NCBI RefSeq assembly: GCF_020622265.1
Contig: NZ_JACNMQ010000004.1
Span: forward strand, 186,001-250,000
Source: Halomonas sp. M20
GTDB lineage: Bacteria > Pseudomonadota > Gammaproteobacteria > Pseudomonadales > Halomonadaceae
Direction of reading: 5' to 3'
DNA length: 64,000 bases
In this document: positions 6,399 to 50,079 of the stretch, piece by piece
Position numbering within the stretch: the stretch's first letter is position 1
How the letters are laid out: each line of letters opens with the position of its first letter
The notes under the pieces: generated by a model
The model's database searches: none
The model's input: the letters and a program-made list of their open reading frames with translations, nothing else
What the model was told of the DNA's origin: nothing
Program-made: the position numbers and the translations under genes

Positions 6399-7550
6399 CA
6401 GGGTCAGGCTCAATGTTCCCAATAGCACCAGCCAGGAAGCCAGCGCTACTCCTTGCCAGCCGGCCATGGCCCAGAATGGCTCGAGATAGAAACCACCCAG
6501 ACTCGCCCCCAGGTAATAGAACACGAGATAAAGTGCCGTCGCACTGCCCCGGGAGTGGGTCGCCTGGCGCCCTACCCAGCTCGAGGCCATGGAGTGGCAT
6601 ACAAAGAAGCCGAAGGCGTTGATCACGAGTCCCAGCAGAATGATCGGCAGCGATGCGCTCAGAGTCACCAGAGTGCCGCCCATCAGGATCAGGATACCCA
6701 GCATCATGCACATCGGCTGAGGTAGACGCTGGGACAGCCTGCCAGACAGCGCCGACCCGAACGTCCCCCCTAGATAGGTCACGAAGATCATGCCTAGCCA
6801 CTGCATCGACAGGGAGTAAGGCGCTTCATGCAGGCGAAAGGTGATATAGCTGTATTGATTGATGAAAATGAAGAAATTCAATCCGCCAATCAAATAAGCC
6901 GATAGCAGCAGCGGGTTGCGAAGATGATCGGCCAGTGCCTGGAGGGCAATCTTCAAACGAAACGGGCGCGACTCGAAATGACCTGCCCGCGGCAATAGCC
7001 ACCAGAAGATGGCGACACAGGCCACGCTGAGCAGCCCTACGGCCATGAAGCTTGCGTGCCATCCGCCGTACTCGCCGGCAAAGCCGCCCAGGACACGCCC
7101 GCCGATACCCCCCAGGGTATTGGCGCTGATATAAAACCCCACTGCCAGCATCAAGGCGCGGTGATCGAACTCGTCCCCCATCCAGGCAATCGCCACCGCC
7201 GGCAGCCCTCCCAGCACCATACCTTGAAGCGCTCGTACGATGAGCAGCAGCGTGAAATCATCGACGAACATCAAGGACAGCGAACAGAGCGCTGTCGCCA
7301 GCAAGGTAAAGCGCATGATGCGATCGCGCCCGATGGCATCGGACAGCGGACCGAATATAAGCAGCGAACAGGCAAGCGTCACCAATGCCGCCGACATCAC
7401 CAGAGAGGCCTCGAGGGTAGATACGCCGAACTCGAGACGCAATTCAGGCAGCAGCGGTTGAACGGCATAGAGATTGACGAAGACGATGAAGGAGCCCAGG
7501 CACAAGGCCAGGGTCGCTCGCCACCAATCTCGGCTATAGGCTTCGATCAT
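6372..7550 (-). CDS. MFS transporter, YnfM-like efflux family
   Basis: Twelve-helix major facilitator of about 392 residues. The first loop carries a GPLSDAIGRDRIM motif (MFS motif A: G-x3-D-x2-G-R) after helix 2, and RALQGMVLGGLPAVAIAW in helix 4 resembles the YnfM/YgaY (arabinose-efflux-like) group. The substrate is unknown. I chose ATG 7550; a TTG at 7559 overlaps the stop of the preceding DUF1266 gene and would add three residues, so coupling to that gene is likely either way. Confidence 0.8.
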   Translation of the reverse strand: MIEAYSRDWWRATLALCLGSFIVFVNLYAVQPLLPELRLEFGVSTLEASLVMSAALVTLACSLLIFGPLSDAIGRDRIMRFTLLATALCSLSLMFVDDFTLLLIVRALQGMVLGGLPAVAIAWMGDEFDHRALMLAVGFYISANTLGGIGGRVLGGFAGEYGGWHASFMAVGLLSVACVAIFWWLLPRAGHFESRPFRLKIALQALADHLRNPLLLSAYLIGGLNFFIFINQYSYITFRLHEAPYSLSMQWLGMIFVTYLGGTFGSALSGRLSQRLPQPMCMMLGILILMGGTLVTLSASLPIILLGLVINAFGFFVCHSMASSWVGRQATHSRGSATALYLVFYYLGASLGGFYLEPFWAMAGWQGVALASWLVLLGTLSLTLWLWRHTAP

Positions 7551-11687: not shown

Positions 11688-13844
11688 TTAGGCCGGCATG
11701 TCGTTGGCCTTCGAGTCCCGAGACCACACGCGATGCTCCCCCACGGCCTGGGCAAAGGGTTCGAATACCGACTCTACCCCATCCTCGACGAATATCCCGT
11801 CTTCACCGATAGGCACTCCCGCGGCATCGAGTAGCGCTCTGCCTTCCCCGAGGGCGGCAATTGCCTTGAGGTGCTTGTAAGCCTCCTGGACGTAATAGCG
11901 TCCCAAACCGGAGCCCGCCAATGCCTGGGCACTGCCTTCGCCACCGGCGACGATGACCGCATCCACGGTCACGGAGGGCAGACCATTGACCATGCCGTCC
12001 GGGGTGACGGCCTGGCCGTTGCTGGCCTTGACCGGAGCCATGCTCGGTGCAATGACCATACCTTGAGCCCCCTGCTCGGACAGCTTCACCTTGAGCGCTT
12101 CCACCTGTTCGCCATCGACACCATCTGCCACCAGGATGGCGATCTTGCGGTACTTGATATTGCCCGGTAACCGCGCCATCAGGCTCAGCGCCTCGGACGC
12201 CTCTTGGGAACTCTTGCCCAGTTCGCCTTCCGGTGCAGTCGGCTCCCCAGGGGCTTCTATTCCGTGGTTCTCGCCGACACGACGTGCCAGTTCCAGATCG
12301 ATATTGGGCAGAATCTCCTTGATCTGTCGCTCTCGGATGTAGGGTCGCGCCACCTTGGAAAGCTCGAAGGTGTAGGCGGCGATGATGTGCTCCTTCTCCA
12401 CCTCGGTCTGGCTGTTCCAGAACAGTCGTGCCTGGGAGTAGTGATCGCCGAAGGAGTCGCTGCGCGCCCGCACCTTGTGAGCATCGACCCGTTCGTAATG
12501 GCTCTCGTACCCGCCGTTTTCTTCCGCCGCTGGGGTCTGCTTGGGCCAGCCGCCATCGATGGAGTTGGGCTCGTAGGAGGCCTGACCCTTATTGATGGTC
12601 TGGCGGTGCGGCGCATCACGCTGATTGTTGTGGAACGGGCACACCGGGCGGTTGATGGGAATCTCGTGGAAGTTCGGCCCGCTCAGGCGCAGCATCTGGG
12701 TATCCAGATAAGAGAACAGACGCCCTTGCAGCAGCGGATCGTTGCTGAAATCAATGCCCGGCACCACATGGCCGGGGCTGAAGGCCACCTGCTCGGTCTC
12801 GGCGAAGTAGTTGTCCGGGTTGCGGTTGAGCACCATCTTGCCAATCGGCGTGACCGGCACCTGCTCTTCAGGAATCAGCTTGGTGGCGTCGAGAATATCG
12901 AAGTCGAAGTTGTGCTCGTCCTGTTCCTCGACGACCTGGATGCCCAGCTCGAATTCAAGGAAATCGCCGTTCTCGATGTCTTCCCACATACCACGACGGT
13001 TGAAGTCCGGATCGCGGCCCCAGAGCTTCTGGGCTTCATCCCAAATCAATGAGCAGGTGCCCGCCAGCGGCTTCCAGTGGAACTTGACGAAGCGTGCCTT
13101 GCCCTGTCTGTCGATCATGCGGAAGGTATGCACACCAAAGCCTTCCATGTTGCGGTAATGGCGCGGGAAGGCGCGATCCGACATGGTCCACAGCACCATA
13201 TGGGCGGATTCGGGGAACAGCGAGACGAAGTCCCAGAAGGTATCGTGGGCAGACTGCCCCTGGGGGATCTCGTTGTGGGGTTCGGGCTTCACCGCGTGGA
13301 CGAAATCGGGGAACTTGGTGGCATCCTGCATGAAGAACACCGGCATGTCGTTGCCGACCAGATCCCAGTTGCCTTCCTCGGTGTAGAACTTGACAGCGAA
13401 ACCGCGCACGTCACGAACGGTGTCGTTGGAACCACGCCCGCCCTGCACCGTGGAAAAACGGGTAAATACCGGCGTCTTCTTGCCGGCTTTGCTGAACAGC
13501 GCCGCCTTGGAGTATTGGGAAGCGCCGTCGTAAGCCTCGAAATAGCCGTGAGCCGCAGCGCCCCGGGCGTGGACAATACGCTCGGGAATGCGCTCATGGT
13601 CGAAGTGATTGAGCTTCTCACGGAGAATGAAATCCTCCATCAGAGTCGGCCCACGCTCGCCAGCCTTCAGCGAATTGTGGTTGTCGGCAATGCGTACACC
13701 CTGATTGGTGCGCAGGTCATGCCCTTCGGCATCGCTACGAAACTGCTCCAGACTCTCCGATTTGCTGTGCTCGGTGGTCTTGAATTTCGTATCGTGAGGG
13801 CCATCGCTATTGGGTTGGGTATAGGGGCTGTTACTGGTGGCCAT
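11688..13844 (-). CDS. katE: Large-subunit catalase HPII
   Basis: 718 residues, the size of HPII clade 2 catalases. The N-terminal arm ([29 protein letters not shown] with the catalytic His) leads into the beta-barrel core. The proximal heme ligand is in [14 protein letters not shown], followed by [12 protein letters not shown]. Residues about 560-718 form the extra flavodoxin/DJ-1-like domain found only in large-subunit catalases. It breaks down hydrogen peroxide in the cytoplasm, usually in stationary phase or under osmotic stress. GAGGAG ribosome site. A 12-bp palindrome lies about 110 bases upstream. Confidence 0.95.
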
Positions 13845-44762: not shown

Positions 44763-44937
44763 AAAGAGAAACTTTTTGTTTTACTAACTATTAACCTATG
44801 TTAATAGAAGCAGTGCTCTTCAAAAGTGATTCAATCCGCGGAAAGTTCTCGAAGTTCCTCATAGAAGCCTGATAATCCTAAACAAACTTCGACTCATTTT
44901 CTCTATGCTGGCACGAATGAAATCGTGAGATATCTTG

Positions 44938-45573
44938 ATGGAAGCCTTGGGTGCTCGAATAAAACAATTACGCCAACAGGCCAAGCTCAGCAAAGCGGCT
45001 TTGGCACGCAAAGTAGGCGTATCCGATGTGTCGATCTCCTATTGGGAGTCCGGCACCATCCGCCAGGTTGGTCACGAACGTCTTGTAGCCCTGGCTGACG
45101 CGCTGGGATGCAGTCTTGAAGACTTACTCAAGACGCCTATTTCTCAACCTCAACCTCAGCCTCAGCCTCAGCCTCAGCGAGTACTCTATATCCAGGTACA
45201 TCAACCGCCTCCCTGGCTTCAGCAAGCCGCCCCGATCTCCATCCTCGGTGACATTCCCGTGCCCAATCTGGACGATGACTGTCATTTGGTCACGCCGGCC
45301 CCTGGTGAAAGATTCGACTTCATCGACACCGGTGATTTGGCCGCAGTGCTGCCGACCAATACGTTTGTGCAAGATGGGTTGTACATACTCGAGCGCTTCG
45401 GCAGGTTGATCGTACGCTATCTGTCTCATACCGATAACGGCGATATCGACATCAGCGACGAATCCAAGCATATGGAACAAGCTCCGATGAGCGATCTACC
45501 CTATAAATTGCTTGGTCAGATTCGCACTCTATGGCAACTCACCGAAATACATAAGGAGACGTTTTACGATTAG
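44938..45573 (+). CDS. XRE-family regulator with degenerate S24 domain
   Basis: 211 residues. Residues 4-60: helix-turn-helix (IKQLRQQAKLSKAALARKVGVSDVSISYWESG). A (Pro-Gln)5 linker at residues about 70-80 joins a C-terminal domain with LexA/CI-like layout (RFDFIDTGDLAAVL, QDGLYILERFGRLIVRYL). The expected S-M serine is absent and the Lys position reads Arg, so self-cleavage is unlikely. It resembles phage repressors but lies about 800 bases outside the prophage border; it could be a remnant or a host regulator. No clear ribosome site. Confidence 0.75.
   Translation: MEALGARIKQLRQQAKLSKAALARKVGVSDVSISYWESGTIRQVGHERLVALADALGCSLEDLLKTPISQPQPQPQPQPQRVLYIQVHQPPPWLQQAAPISILGDIPVPNLDDDCHLVTPAPGERFDFIDTGDLAAVLPTNTFVQDGLYILERFGRLIVRYLSHTDNGDIDISDESKHMEQAPMSDLPYKLLGQIRTLWQLTEIHKETFYD
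45148..45177 (+). repeat. Five tandem CCTCAR hexamers
   Basis: Encodes the (Pro-Gln)5 linker of the XRE regulator. Because the unit is 6 bases, slippage changes linker length without breaking the frame. Confidence 0.85.
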
Positions 45574-46369
45574 AGAGTGTGATGCGATCGCGTGTCCACG
45601 CGACACGGCGATAGGTAGTTGATTCAACCGGTGGTGTAAATAATGACGTACATAAAAGTAGGCCCAGCCATTTCTGGCCGGGCCTTGCAGAGAAACGTAC
45701 TCTGCTGAACGAAGAGTCCTCTGGTTCCTTGGCATCAAGGGCTTCCTGCCTGGATTGCCTCCTTCCCTTACACTGATCGTCCTGATCACGCACATCCTGT
45801 GCTTGCAGCCACTCATTGGCCACTGCTCTTCGCTTGAATACTCCAATCGCCTTGATGATGATCACGGCTCCATGCACAGCAGATATCTAATGATACTGCA
45901 TACCTTCCTTGGTATTTTTTGATGCAACTTGGAGCGAAACCAGCTTATTGGCTGCTTTCTAGTGCCATGCGTCCTGCAGGCAAATCGAACGACTCCTTGC
46001 TCGATGGAGAGCATTATGTCTTATTTGAACTATTTTTTACTTAATCTATATTAATTGATGACCATCGATCGTGTAAGCAAAGAGCGGCATATTGTGTAGG
46101 TTATTTCTTACAAAACATGCACAAAAGCTAATATCTCTTAGTGACAAGGCCACTGAATCGCCATACACGGCCATGGTGTATGCATCATACGATCTCGAGC
46201 TCTGCATGGCGTGCCCGGAACGCATCCGAAATGCTCGTCGAAGTATAAAGACCGCTCCATGGCTATCTTCACCTCTGCAAGGCTCAGTTACCCGGGAAGG
46301 GCATGCGAGGCCAGACTATATATGCGAAACTGCCATCTATCCGATGCCGTCTTTAGCATACCCCTTGAA
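45574..46369. other. Host intergenic region left of the prophage
   Basis: About 800 bases without a convincing gene. It holds an imperfect hairpin GGCCCAGCC / GGCCGGGCC (45664-45688) that could end the XRE gene, and a short ATACC / GGTAT hairpin followed by T6 (45900-45920). A 112-codon leftward frame (45539-45877) lacks a ribosome site and crosses the first hairpin, so I do not call it. Confidence 0.4.
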
Positions 46370-46438
46370 ATGAATCTTCCAGAATTTGACAGAACCTTCT
46401 CCGTCGCGCCGATGATGGATCGGACTCTAATGCCGTAG
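46370..46438 (+). pseudogene. dusA: 5' fragment of dusA (tRNA-dihydrouridine synthase A)
   Basis: The frame reads MNLPEFDRTFSVAPMMDRT then random residues and a stop. FSVAPMMDWTDRH is the near-invariant N-terminus of DusA; identity breaks at Trp (here Arg) and then completely. This is what remains when a prophage inserts into codons 15-20 of dusA. DusA reduces U20/U20a in tRNA. The intact or restored gene should lie at the right prophage end, outside the window. Confidence 0.75.
46397..46425 (+). other. attL: Predicted attL in dusA
   Basis: The stretch encoding FSVAPMMD(R)T spans the most conserved dusA codons, which dusA-targeting integrases use as core site. Sequence to its left looks host-like; to its right begins AT-variable phage DNA. 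The exact core cannot be fixed without attR. Confidence 0.6.
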
Positions 46439-46473
46439 TGGTAGGCTTCGCAGCGCTCAAGTACCAAATATGT

Positions 46474-46504
46474 GCCAACAGTATCCAGCTGCTGGCATTT
46501 TTTT
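46474..46504 (+). terminator. Terminator just inside the prophage
   Basis: GCCAACAG / CTGCTGGC (one mismatch) with a TATCCAG loop and ATTTTTTT tail. It would stop host transcription that enters through the cut dusA promoter. Confidence 0.75.
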
Positions 46505-46611
46505 GTCCTTGAAGAAGCTGAGCGGGAATAGTCGCGAGAGTGACGAGAGAAGAAGCATGTATGACTTGCGTGTGCGCGGGCGCGTTGAAGGGGGCTATCA
46601 GAATGTTTGGG

Positions 46612-46916
46612 GGGCTCGGAAAAAGGTAACAAAGGTAATGCTTTCTCAAATATCGTCATATCTTATTGTTTTGTATGTATTTAAAACGGTCGTTCAAAAG
46701 GTAACATAAAGGTGATGTAAAGGTGATGCGTTACCTTTTTAAATGGTAATTATCGTATTTTTATAAATCTATATATATCAATATCTTAGGAAAGCATTAC
46801 CTTTTGCAGTACCAAACGTTACCTTTTTAGGGTAATTTTTTTATCCTTTAATATCATTAACTTAATACCTAAAAACATGGCGCGTTACCTGCATTACCTT
46901 TTTCCGAGGACCCCCC
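46612..46916. repeat. Two-fold symmetric array of AAAGGTRAY repeats around an AT-rich core
   Basis: At least ten copies of a 9-10 base word. Plus orientation: 46622, 46631, 46697, 46708, 46719. Minus orientation: 46730, 46795, 46818, 46884, 46892. Two weaker copies sit at 46742 and 46829. All good copies left of about 46730 point right and all to the right point left. The outer ends form a longer inverted repeat (GGGGxCTCGGAAAAAGGTAA at left; its complement, with CCGAGGACCCCCC, at right). The centre (46745-46795) is nearly pure A/T. This looks like initiator-binding iterons flanking an unwinding element, or a large operator. No gene overlaps convincingly. Confidence 0.8.
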
Positions 46917-47080
46917 TGGCTTATAAACTGCCCTTTGGCCGCTGTGGCTGCTCTCATAGCCATTTAAAACGAAGGATTCCGAAGCAAAAACAGCATCTTA
47001 TCGCTGTCCGTCAGCCGCTCTGTGTGAGCGCTCTAGCGGGCATTGAGGAAGTGAATAAAAACTGACCTACAAAGCGCGCA

Positions 47081-47099
47081 GGCGGGGCGGGGTGTCGAC
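47081..47099 (+). other. cos: Candidate cos site
   Basis: GGCGGGGCGGGG (47081-47092) differs by one base from the first 12 bases of P2 cos as I recall it (GGCGAGGCGGGG). It is in the same orientation and the same place, just beyond the 3' end of the leftward Q gene. The last seven bases of the 19-base P2 site do not match. Confidence 0.5.
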
Positions 47100-47162
47100 G
47101 GCGCGCGGTGGGGCGCCAGGGACTTTAGTAGGGGTGGCTGGTAGGACCTGAGCGGCAGGCAC

Positions 47163-47186
47163 AAAAAAGCCGCTCAGATGAGCGGC
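47163..47186 (-). terminator. Terminator after the Q gene
   Basis: GCCGCT / AGCGGC stem; on the minus strand it is followed by six Us. It ends the P-Q transcript before cos. Confidence 0.85.
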
Positions 47187-47215
47187 AAGCCAGGGAGAAC
47201 TTGGGGGCGTGGTGA

Positions 47216-48304
47216 TCAGCGCGAGGGATCGAGGCCGGCGCCGCCGGGAGCGTCGAGGGAGTAGGGATTGAAGCGGATGATCTCTTCGCCCATCCGCTCG
47301 TTGATCTCCATGAAGGTGGCCTGCAGCGGTTCGAGCTCATTGGCGACGAAGACCCGGGCGGCCTTCTCGACATCGCCGAAGCCGCCAGTGTTCTGCGGAA
47401 TGATGCCCATCAGCTGCGGCGGGATGCGGTGGCCGGCGAGCTGATCGTCCCGGGTGATGTTCTTGATGTTCCAGAACTCGTCCTTGGCCGCCACCTCGGA
47501 CACCGGGATGATCTGCACCCCGTCCTTCTTTCCCTTCGGCGAATAGAGGAACAGGTTGCGAAAGTTGCCCGGGCCCTTGCTTTCGCGCAGCGCCTGACGC
47601 ATGGCGTCGATGTCCTTCTGATCGTGGGCCTCGTCGTTGACGTACATGATGAAGCCGGCATGGCTGCCGTTGAGGTAGTAGCGGCGCCGGAACAGCGTCG
47701 CGCTCTCGTTGAGCCAGGCCGACTGCAGCGAGCCCAGATAGTCCGGCAGCCCATAGACGGTCTGATCGATATCCGGCTCGAGCAGATGCACCACCCTGCC
47801 CTTGGGCAGCTCGGTCTTATCCAGATAGTTGGGCACCCACCAGTAGCGGTTCGCCTGCTTGCCGCCGCGCCGCATGTACTTGGCCGGTAGATGGCGGAAC
47901 GGCAGGCGCTTGCCGAGTCGCCCTTTCACCTCTTCCAGGTAGCAGTTGCCGAACACCAGATGATCGAGGGCCAAAGCGCTGAACGCCTGGCGGCTAAGCA
48001 GTGGATGCGGCTGGAAGGTGCGCAAAAGAATGTTGCGCTTCACCTGCAGCGCGCTGCCATGATGCGCGGTCGACCGATAGGATTGAGCCAGCACGCTGAA
48101 CGGCACCGGTGGCTCGTACCACTCATCCGGGCTCAACCACACGCCCTCGTAGAACACATCGCGCAGGCTTGTCACCGGCTCGGGATCGCCGAACGAGAAC
48201 GCCTCGGCTCTCGCCTTGCCAGGCGTTGGTTCCGGCGCGGCTTCGCCCTGCTTACTGTACGCCGGCACTCGAATCCGGGGCTTGTCGGCGATGTTATCGC
48301 TCAT
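47216..48304 (-). CDS. Q: Phage portal protein (P2 gpQ family)
   Basis: 362 residues. It builds the dodecameric portal through which DNA enters the capsid. Family features: GVWLSPDEWYEPPVPFSVLAQSYRSTAHHGSALQVKRNIL, YMRRGGKQANRYWWVPNYL and the DDQLAGHRIPPQLMGIIPQNTGGFGDVEKA block. Its start overlaps the P stop (ATGA), with a GGAG site. Confidence 0.93.
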   Translation of the reverse strand: MSDNIADKPRIRVPAYSKQGEAAPEPTPGKARAEAFSFGDPEPVTSLRDVFYEGVWLSPDEWYEPPVPFSVLAQSYRSTAHHGSALQVKRNILLRTFQPHPLLSRQAFSALALDHLVFGNCYLEEVKGRLGKRLPFRHLPAKYMRRGGKQANRYWWVPNYLDKTELPKGRVVHLLEPDIDQTVYGLPDYLGSLQSAWLNESATLFRRRYYLNGSHAGFIMYVNDEAHDQKDIDAMRQALRESKGPGNFRNLFLYSPKGKKDGVQIIPVSEVAAKDEFWNIKNITRDDQLAGHRIPPQLMGIIPQNTGGFGDVEKAARVFVANELEPLQATFMEINERMGEEIIRFNPYSLDAPGGAGLDPSR

Positions 48305-50079
48305 TCGAAGATCTCCATCATTGATTGACCGGTACCGGAATCATCCGGGCCCTCGATCGGTTCTTTGTGCAGGGCGTGCATCGTGGCCCAGGCGAGATCC
48401 GCATGGCCGGTCTGCTTGTTACGCCCCGAGGTATAGGTGAACTGGCGACCGCTGGCGGTGAGTTCCTTCTTGATCGCCATGAAGGACTGGGCCAGATCCG
48501 CCCAGCCCGCGTCGAATTCCAGGCGGTTCTTGCGCACGATCTGCTGGGCCTGCATGACCATGGTGGACTTGAGCTCCGGCGTGTAGCGGTAGCGCTCGAC
48601 CAACGGGAACCACTTGGCCACGTACTCTGCCACGGCGCCGCCGAGCCCGGTGGTATCGATACCGATATGCTCGATGCGATAGCGCTCGCGGAACGACTTG
48701 ATGAAGTCCGCCTGGGCTTCGTAGTCGTCGCCCTTGAGCCGGTGGCGTTCCAGGATTCGGTGTTTCTCGCCGACGGAGCGGGCCGGGAGAATGACCACCA
48801 GACCCGCGCCGTCGCCATCCTCGCCGGTACCGGTGGGGTCGTAGCCGATCCACACGCCACGATCCCCCACCGGTCGCGGGGCAAAGGGTCGGTAGTCGTC
48901 CCACACCTCCCAGCTATCGACCATGCAGTTCTGCAGTGCCGACAGCGGGAAGGCGCTCTGGCTGTCGTCGACGAACTGACACATCAGTAGGTTATCGAAC
49001 TCATCCGGACTGTATTCCAGGCGTAGCTGCTCGATGTCGAACAGGTCACAGCCGCCGGCGATGGCATCCTCCACCGTGACGATCTGCCGCCAGTGCCCAT
49101 CCGGGCATAGCGCCCCCGCCGCCAGGGCCGCATGGCTGACGTCGAACTCCTTGCGGTCGGCCTTGGTGCGACGCTTGTTGAACAGATCCCCGGTCCAGAA
49201 CGGATAGGCCTCATGGCCGATGCTAGAGGGCGTGGAAAAATAGGTCTGCCGCCACTTCTTGTGCATGGCCATGCCGCTGGTGACCTTGCGGAATTCCTGG
49301 AAGCGGTGGATCCAGAAATACTCGTCCAGGTAGACGTCACCGTGATAGCCCTGGGCGGTCTTCGAGTTGGTGCCCAGAAAGTGCAGCTCCGCGCCGTTGT
49401 CCAACACGATCGGGTCGCCCTTGAGATCGACGTCGGTGATCTCCTTGACGAACTGGACGATATAGTTGCGGAAGATATGCGCCTGGGCCTTGGACGCCGA
49501 GAGGAAAATCTTGTTACGCCCATGCTCGAAAGCATCGACGATCGCCTCGCGAGCGAAGAAGAACGTTGCGCCGATCTGGCGGCTCTTGAGGATGTTGCGG
49601 ATGCGGTGCTTCTGGCCGGCGTCATACCACTGCCGTTGGTAGGCGAAGGCCGTTTCCAGGAACGCCGTTTTCAGCGCCGCGATCTGCTCATCGTCCAGGG
49701 CATTGCGGCGTGGCTTCTTCTTCGGCCCCGCGTTGCGCGCCTCGATGTTCGGATTGAGGTCCGATTCCTTTCCGCTGCCCTCGTACTTGTGCACTCGGGC
49801 AAGCCGTTCGATCTGGCGGCCCAGCAGGTCGATCTCCTTGAAGTCGCGACCTTCCTTTTCCTCCTTGCCGATCAACTGCACCAGGCGCGCTTCGAGCGCC
49901 CCTTCCACGCGCTGGGTCGGGCTCGCCTCCGCCCAGCCGTCCCGGGCCTTCCAGGTGTGCACCGTCGCCGGCTTCTCGTCGAGAAATTCGGCGATACGCG
50001 CAATTCGCCACCCCTGCCAGTAGAGGTGGCGGGCGGTTACCCGGGGGGAGTCGAGAGTGTCGGGGGGCATCGTCGTCAT
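48301..50079 (-). CDS. P: Terminase large subunit, ATPase/nuclease (P2 gpP family)
   Basis: 592 residues. N-terminal helix-turn-helix (GWRIARIAEFLDEKPATVHTW), Walker A-like KSRQIGATFFFAREA, Walker B VYLDEYFW, coupling motif TYFSTPSSIG, and a C-terminal RNase H-like nuclease with acidic GYDPTGTGEDGDG and IGIDTTGLGG. It packages DNA from cos with gpM. The ATG at 50079 is exactly where transcription is predicted to begin, so the mRNA may be leaderless; no Shine-Dalgarno is seen. Confidence 0.93.
   Translation of the reverse strand: MTTMPPDTLDSPRVTARHLYWQGWRIARIAEFLDEKPATVHTWKARDGWAEASPTQRVEGALEARLVQLIGKEEKEGRDFKEIDLLGRQIERLARVHKYEGSGKESDLNPNIEARNAGPKKKPRRNALDDEQIAALKTAFLETAFAYQRQWYDAGQKHRIRNILKSRQIGATFFFAREAIVDAFEHGRNKIFLSASKAQAHIFRNYIVQFVKEITDVDLKGDPIVLDNGAELHFLGTNSKTAQGYHGDVYLDEYFWIHRFQEFRKVTSGMAMHKKWRQTYFSTPSSIGHEAYPFWTGDLFNKRRTKADRKEFDVSHAALAAGALCPDGHWRQIVTVEDAIAGGCDLFDIEQLRLEYSPDEFDNLLMCQFVDDSQSAFPLSALQNCMVDSWEVWDDYRPFAPRPVGDRGVWIGYDPTGTGEDGDGAGLVVILPARSVGEKHRILERHRLKGDDYEAQADFIKSFRERYRIEHIGIDTTGLGGAVAEYVAKWFPLVERYRYTPELKSTMVMQAQQIVRKNRLEFDAGWADLAQSFMAIKKELTASGRQFTYTSGRNKQTGHADLAWATMHALHKEPIEGPDDSGTGQSMMEIFE

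Follow-up and report, generated by a model that had tools for sequence, protein, structure and literature searches.

A two-fold iteron array as the probable replication origin of a P2-like temperate phage encoding its own primase-helicase

Which function is served by a dense cluster of short, opposed repeats lying at one edge of a Halomonas prophage? The window analysed in this work is a stretch of 64,000 nucleotides from Halomonas sp. M20, and is part of contig C10 in a genome of 3.89 Mb. An earlier note had pointed to a two-fold array of the word AAAGGTRAY, and had proposed that it could be a phage origin with iterons set around an unwinding element, a partition site or a multi-operator switch. 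Of these, the first option is backed here, as a primase-helicase is present in the prophage, and the array accompanies the primase gene among relatives. Very probably, the array is where replication of this P2-like temperate phage begins, and its proposed reader is the 893-aa primase-helicase of the phage itself.

Between 46622 and 46901, a motif scan of the window identified AAAGGTRAY ten times when one mismatch is allowed, nine of the copies being exact. Exact copies are found at 46622, 46631, 46697, 46708 and 46719 on the + strand, and at 46730, 46796, 46818 and 46893 on the - strand. Two weaker copies with two mismatches each, 46828-46836 (+) and 46884-46892 (-), were read by eye, and the former count of ten good and two weak repeats thus stands. 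The mirror centre of the array is 46761.5. The longer inverted ends already noticed measure 33 bp (46609-46641 and 46882-46914), and are 82% complementary. The parts of the array, numbered by slots relative to the centre, are as follows.

46609-46914, no strand: whole two-fold array with its longer inverted ends, proposed replication origin, conserved in the related prophages G002 and G008
46622-46639, + strand: left outer iteron doublet, slots -135 and -126
46697-46727, + strand: left inner iteron triad, slots -60, -49 and -38, in 11-bp steps
46730-46738, - strand: outward-pointing iteron, slot -28, one of the two copies that give polarity
46739-46795, no strand: A+T-rich core between the arms (sequence, A+T profile), proposed unwinding element
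46742-46750, + strand: weak iteron with one mismatch, slot -15
46796-46826, - strand: right inner iterons, +38 and +60 exact, the +49 slot having no called site here
46828-46836, + strand: weak outward-pointing iteron, slot +71, second polarity-giving copy (read by eye; site call)
46884-46901, - strand: right outer doublet, +126 weak and +135 exact

The arms had been described as five copies pointing right and five pointing left. They are mirrored indeed, but the outward copy at 46730 and the weak one at 46828 breach the rule, and the breach itself is conserved. The core, formerly taken as AT-only, is A+T-rich instead. Chance origin of the array is excluded by shuffles. In 1000 dinucleotide-preserving shuffles of 46600-46930 no more than two exact copies, or four with at most one mismatch, were obtained, in keeping with the small probability assumed at the outset; a geometry score of 6 (on a detector with ten slots and a threshold of 7 or more) was reached in 0 of 40 shuffles of 45001-48500. 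One further exact AAAGGTRAY occurs in the window, as a single copy at 6837. Four pairs of exact words at most 30 bases apart on one strand occur in the 3.89-Mb genome, every one inside the array. The caveat that the word might be common throughout the host genome is thus refuted for word pairs. A scan of the whole prophage (G000) with the array's own word returned this one array.

The array belongs to a 34-kb prophage bounded by a 38-bp direct repeat (46388-46425 and contig 266607-266644), on the left of which reside host genes for citrate synthase and a glutamyl/glutaminyl-type tRNA synthetase. Left to right, the prophage reads attL, array, G+C-rich block, portal, terminase, scaffold, capsid, tail genes, primase, integrase, attR. 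Virion genes of P2 type cover portal, terminase, scaffold, capsid and head-tail functions, and a tail gene of the D type is present too. The attL and cos assignments below are putative, and derive from the sequence.

46388-46425, + strand: putative attL core, 89% direct repeat and copy of the 5' part of the insertion-site gene, presumably dusA, a name given from its protein motif; the attR core (contig 266607-266644) lies outside the window
46453-46479, + strand: repeat common to the attR side and unlike the array word, candidate integrase/excisionase arm site
47073-47116, no strand: G+C-rich block, 93% conserved in G008, candidate cos from its place alone
47216-48304, - strand: portal protein gene, P2 Q type (phrog_68, E 3e-149)
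48301-50079, - strand: terminase large subunit gene, P2 P type

Integrases acting at dusA are the subject of PMC4482086. In the G002 prophage the portal gene is separated from the cos-like block by an insert (L008:2-1104), which encodes a BRO-type antirepressor-like protein, so named from its sequence.

A primase-helicase or initiator in the right arm had been indicated as worth searching for, and one is present. Its gene (contig C10:256986-259667) lies beyond the window and specifies an 893-aa Toprim primase/ATPase, which phrog_1139 matches over its whole length. In alignment the protein retains a zinc-finger-like cysteine set, the Toprim motif and the Walker A motif. Array and primase gene are ~24 kb apart by coordinates in the integrated state; in the excised circle the array falls, by arithmetic, ~7 kb downstream of the gene. 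The fold was modelled on L035, a relative taken from a virus record and sharing 71% identity with the 893-aa protein over the best segment, with 33 aligned relatives (pLDDT 87, pTM 0.68). Top matches of this model in a Foldseek search of the PDB are SCCmec Cch (5dgk, E 2.4e-14) and SaPIbov1 Rep (8tch, E 1.1e-12), with TM values of 0.55-0.60 by target length; DnaG primase domains (E 6e-7), PriRep1 (E 2e-6) and D5 are among those ranking next. On the relative's model, the 893-aa protein is most readily understood as a fusion of a DnaG-type primase with a Rep/Cch-like helicase. Fold and phrog_1139 profile link the helicase half to DUF927, direct sequence comparison being weak (BLASTP E 0.015, hhalign E 0.15); the second half of phrog_1139 is matched, with E 7e-87, by a DUF927 protein of another genome (L134:1345-3114). 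The profile hence also catches stand-alone helicases, such as this protein, and no array was seen in the ~1.5-kb flanks covered by L131-L135. The primase of a phage recorded as infecting Bacillus pumilus (L017, OR820920) shares 93% identity with its counterpart in a Halomonas phage, and the host label looks odd.

The array gave no blastn match against phages and plasmids. Since words diverge between relatives, blastn was replaced by a word-free detector, for which the best null score is -6.7 (five coding stretches) and eight array controls range from -9.8 to -16.7, and by the geometry detector. The primase was found by tblastn in 21 phage records; ten were taken, and nine have a repeat array. 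No array was found in the tenth, BpuZY1, a record that starts and stops with a gene, so that the interval may be missing. Within the genus, the array resides in three of 14 genomes, the same three in which the primase is full-length, and three more genomes show partial primase matches, to the second half only. The earlier note had suggested looking for the same word in related prophages. The array is kept in same-genus prophages inserted at the same dusA site (G002) and at another site marked by a 42-bp direct repeat (G008), but the words of relatives differ, and the spacing is what they share with M20. The G008 insertion site reads as tRNA-like, but ARAGORN finds no tRNA there.

Geometry scores of at least 7 were obtained for 8 of the 9 public phage records scanned, for 11 of 19 prophages of bacterial genomes, to which G159, G245 and G028c35 were added by a word score of -9 or lower, and for 14 of 34 ends of virus records with the primase (15 of 34 with extra stretches). 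Five of these 34 records extend less than 1 kb past the portal gene (G404, G407, G412, G413, G422), nine have nothing credible in the stretches scanned (G408, G411, G424, G426, G428, G429, G433, G434, G439), and five show hints below threshold (G427, G431, G435, G437, G440). Hints below threshold were also given by four bacterial prophages with primase (G225, G076, G138, G357); in the G033 prophage, where the primase is present, the detectors found no array. When 80 virus loci centred on the primase were scanned for exact 7-mers, clear arrays emerged in two alone, L035 and L044; the 34 records are those, among the 80, whose far ends were examined afterwards. Noise at the threshold is illustrated by L090 and L092, two primase records that reach 7 with G+C-rich words, scores taken to be coding noise. 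Words are clustered with poor geometry fit in phi3 (-16.2), where the array has 16 copies and another geometry, in G028c50 (-21.8) and in G028c35 (-9.3).

Additional clusters were met along the way. The G028 C50 prophage hosts two with unlike words (L169:10164-10396 and 12799-13067), the first of which fits the geometry in 7 of 10 slots. G076 (L143:18252-18469) and G225 (L154:1525-1742) share, on the primase side, a TCAACTGA cluster with word scores of -9.4 and -9.1, separate from their GTAATTT-type words. A smaller TGTGGACG cluster lies beside the integrase gene of ESSI2_ev239 (L020:26742-26965), apart from its TGTGATG array. An IMG/VR record of 46962 bases carries two AGCGATA-type arrays ~36 kb apart (L315, centre 1754; L062, centre 17726), both inside a 1.5-kb direct repeat with 97% identity.

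Slots were compared in 40 arrays, corresponding to the 42 sited arrays minus phi3, G028c50 and G435, plus D14A; these arrays are mutually related, in some cases closely (Dobby, Sirocco, D14A), and the slot fit is poor in three (V044, G159, G225). Inward sites recur at -135, -126, -60, -49 and -38 and at the mirror images of these positions. Setting the primase gene rightward, outward copies fall at -28 and +71. Polarity is of the forward type in 38 of 40 arrays and of the reverse type in none, and both outward copies are found in 28. The A+T content peaks (0.82) off centre, at +10 to +19. Words are variable, and include AAAGGTAAY, GGTAATT, CGTCACA, CTGTCAG, GTTACA, CCGTTAC, GGTTAGG, ACCTAACA, CCTGACC and AGCGATA. 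In a side branch, in which primases are ~30-35% identical to that of M20, repeats start 30-81 nt past the primase stop codon in seven of the nine loci measured, and at -33 and 487 nt in the other two. L124 and L126, which belong to the seven, are weak calls.

The P2 replicon is a rolling-circle origin served by gpA. A replication plan other than that of P2 had been surmised for the M20 phage, and this fits the data: gpA (PF05840) was found in 0 of the 12 genomes or records searched (G000, G002, G008 and nine phage records), even though virion and packaging genes are of the same type as in P2. Among 45 virus records with neighbouring portals, four have the primase, 34 gpA and none both. The array geometry was detected in three of the four primase records, in 0 of the 34 gpA records and in one of the seven with neither gene (L240); the Fisher probability for 3/4 versus 0/34, calculated by hand, is ~5e-4. 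The gpA controls were scanned over ~19-21 kb around the portal gene, and 13 of them reach a score of 6, which is noise, none 7. If word score is the sole criterion, -9 is passed by L308 (gpA present, -9.1) and by L260 (neither gene found, -11.9).

Word similarity was also correlated with that of proteins in phages with a portal locus (36, of which 34 used; Smp131 was dropped, and no portal was found in G112). Sirocco, phi3, V044, G138 and both G028 phages were among those left out. The rank correlation is higher for the portal (0.57) than for the primase (0.48); partial correlations are 0.37 (permutation p 0.001) and 0.13 (p 0.12), respectively. Covariation hence provides no proof that the word is read by the primase. 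No window clearly stood out when primase segments were compared with the word in sliding windows (36 of 42 primases, leaving out phi3, G028c50, Smp131 and Sirocco, and G138 and G028c35, which are without word). GC skew gave no support, its extremes not falling at the array in 11 phage genomes. In favour of the origin reading are the association of the array with the primase rather than with gpA, the conserved polarity, and the fold match to Cch and Rep. The observations comprise the sequence of the array with its geometry and polarity, its co-occurrence with the primase gene, the lack of gpA and the fold match; from them we infer origin activity, iteron binding by the primase-helicase, melting, loading and the direction of the forks.

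The surroundings of the array suggest other roles. It could be a packaging or cos-side element bound by the terminase or another virion-side protein, as the candidate cos block is ~170 bases away, those virus-record ends that contain the array have it past the portal gene, and words correlate more closely with portals than with primases. Yet, none of the 34 gpA records with related portals shows the array, so that P2-type packaging does not need it, and one branch carries it directly behind the primase gene. Moreover, UFJF and G421 have unlike words at 82% portal identity, their primases being 50% identical. A packaging role is accordingly judged unlikely. The attL core is only ~200 bases from the array, which might then provide attP arm sites for integrase and excisionase. 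This is very unlikely, because a different repeat, present on either side of the core, is a better arm-site candidate, the array keeps its form in G008 despite the other insertion site, and the side branch has it behind the primase gene.

Clustered words can also be operators, and HTH-type genes are annotated in related phages; a switch controlled by a repressor or activator would moreover agree with a promoter-like site in the core (46781-46752, - strand), the one found by scanning 46200-47400, though the count is no higher than in shuffles (1.4 expected). The same scan revealed a terminator-like site behind the portal gene. However, the nearest HTH gene (44935-45573) is outside attL, and it is the 3' end of the portal gene that faces the array. 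A fixed polarity across about twelve sites in 280 bp would be unusual for operators, and the array accompanies the primase, not gpA. There is little to recommend a multi-operator switch. Some plasmids use iteron arrays for partition, D14A has a ParB-domain gene, and a phi3 gene is annotated as partition ATPase, but the M20 prophage is integrated, and no ParA/ParB family was among the matches of those prophage proteins that were searched. A parS-like or plasmid-incompatibility site is thus hardly credible. The imperfect 33-bp terminal inverted repeats recall a mobile element of the MITE type landed in the phage. The array is single-copy in the genome, and inner spacing and polarity are the same in relatives with differing words, which reduces the probability of a MITE to almost nothing.

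A replication origin, the reading preferred here, has parallels in known systems. The alpha protein of P4 combines primase, helicase and origin recognition, and acts on iterons at ori and crr, the latter being a second cis-acting repeat site with which the origin works. The comparison with P4-type origins made in the earlier note is right in kind, as both systems would rely on iterons and one primase-helicase protein with origin recognition; in contrast to the M20 phage, P4 is a satellite, and its word differs. PICI/SaPI origins and their Rep helicases are closer. According to passages of Fillol-Salom et al. 2018 (PMC6092414), the replication module of these islands consists of a Rep initiator helicase and an iteron origin; PICI origins lie behind rep (passages of PMC6092414 and PMC7581432), and the origin repeats are recognised by the C-terminal domains of SaPI Rep and Cch2 (passages of PMC7581432). 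As far as these sources describe them, PICI/SaPI origins resemble the M20 array in overall layout, with iterons in opposed sets on either side of an A+T-rich region. Judging from the relative's model, the M20-type initiator folds as SaPIbov1 Rep and Cch. The proposed origin is located just behind the initiator gene in the side branch, as in PICIs, but far from it in the M20 prophage. Further differences are that the primase domain is of the DnaG/Toprim type and fused in the M20 phage, whereas the primases of SaPIbov1 and SaPI5 belong to the AEP family (passages of PMC7581432), and that the M20 module sits in a full-size P2-like phage rather than in a satellite. The M20 element is not a PICI, because it carries P2-type virion genes. 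By analogy, the best reading is that the array may work like a PICI/SaPI origin. A published origin for such P2-like phages was not found among the open-access matches listed.

The mechanism proposed follows the analogy with SaPI Rep and Cch2 (passages of PMC7581432). Once the phage is excised, the protein would use its Rep-like part to bind the outer doublet and the inner triad of iterons on each side, the triad copies being spaced so as to lie one helical turn apart. Two oligomers may come to oppose each other on either side of the A+T-rich core and melt it. The same oligomers would be loaded as helicases, while the fused DnaG-type domain would lay primers, and replication could start without a nick by a gpA-type protein. 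The outward copies at -28 and +71 would make the site directional, setting the side that opens first.

On a wider scale, the chances seem evenly balanced that, in a large branch of P2-like phages, the rolling-circle gpA was replaced by an initiator that resembles SaPI Rep and is fused with a primase of the DnaG type. The origin would be in this case a fixed, directional scaffold of 280 bp that takes different words, and lineages would drift into replication-specificity groups with the architecture unchanged. That a module of this kind occurs in full phages, its initiator fold related but its primase different, bears on the source of the replication module of satellites. With the conserved spacing as a ready map, candidate origins can be sought elsewhere among P2-like phages, and the polarity kept among relatives raises a testable question, that is, how two helicases are loaded.
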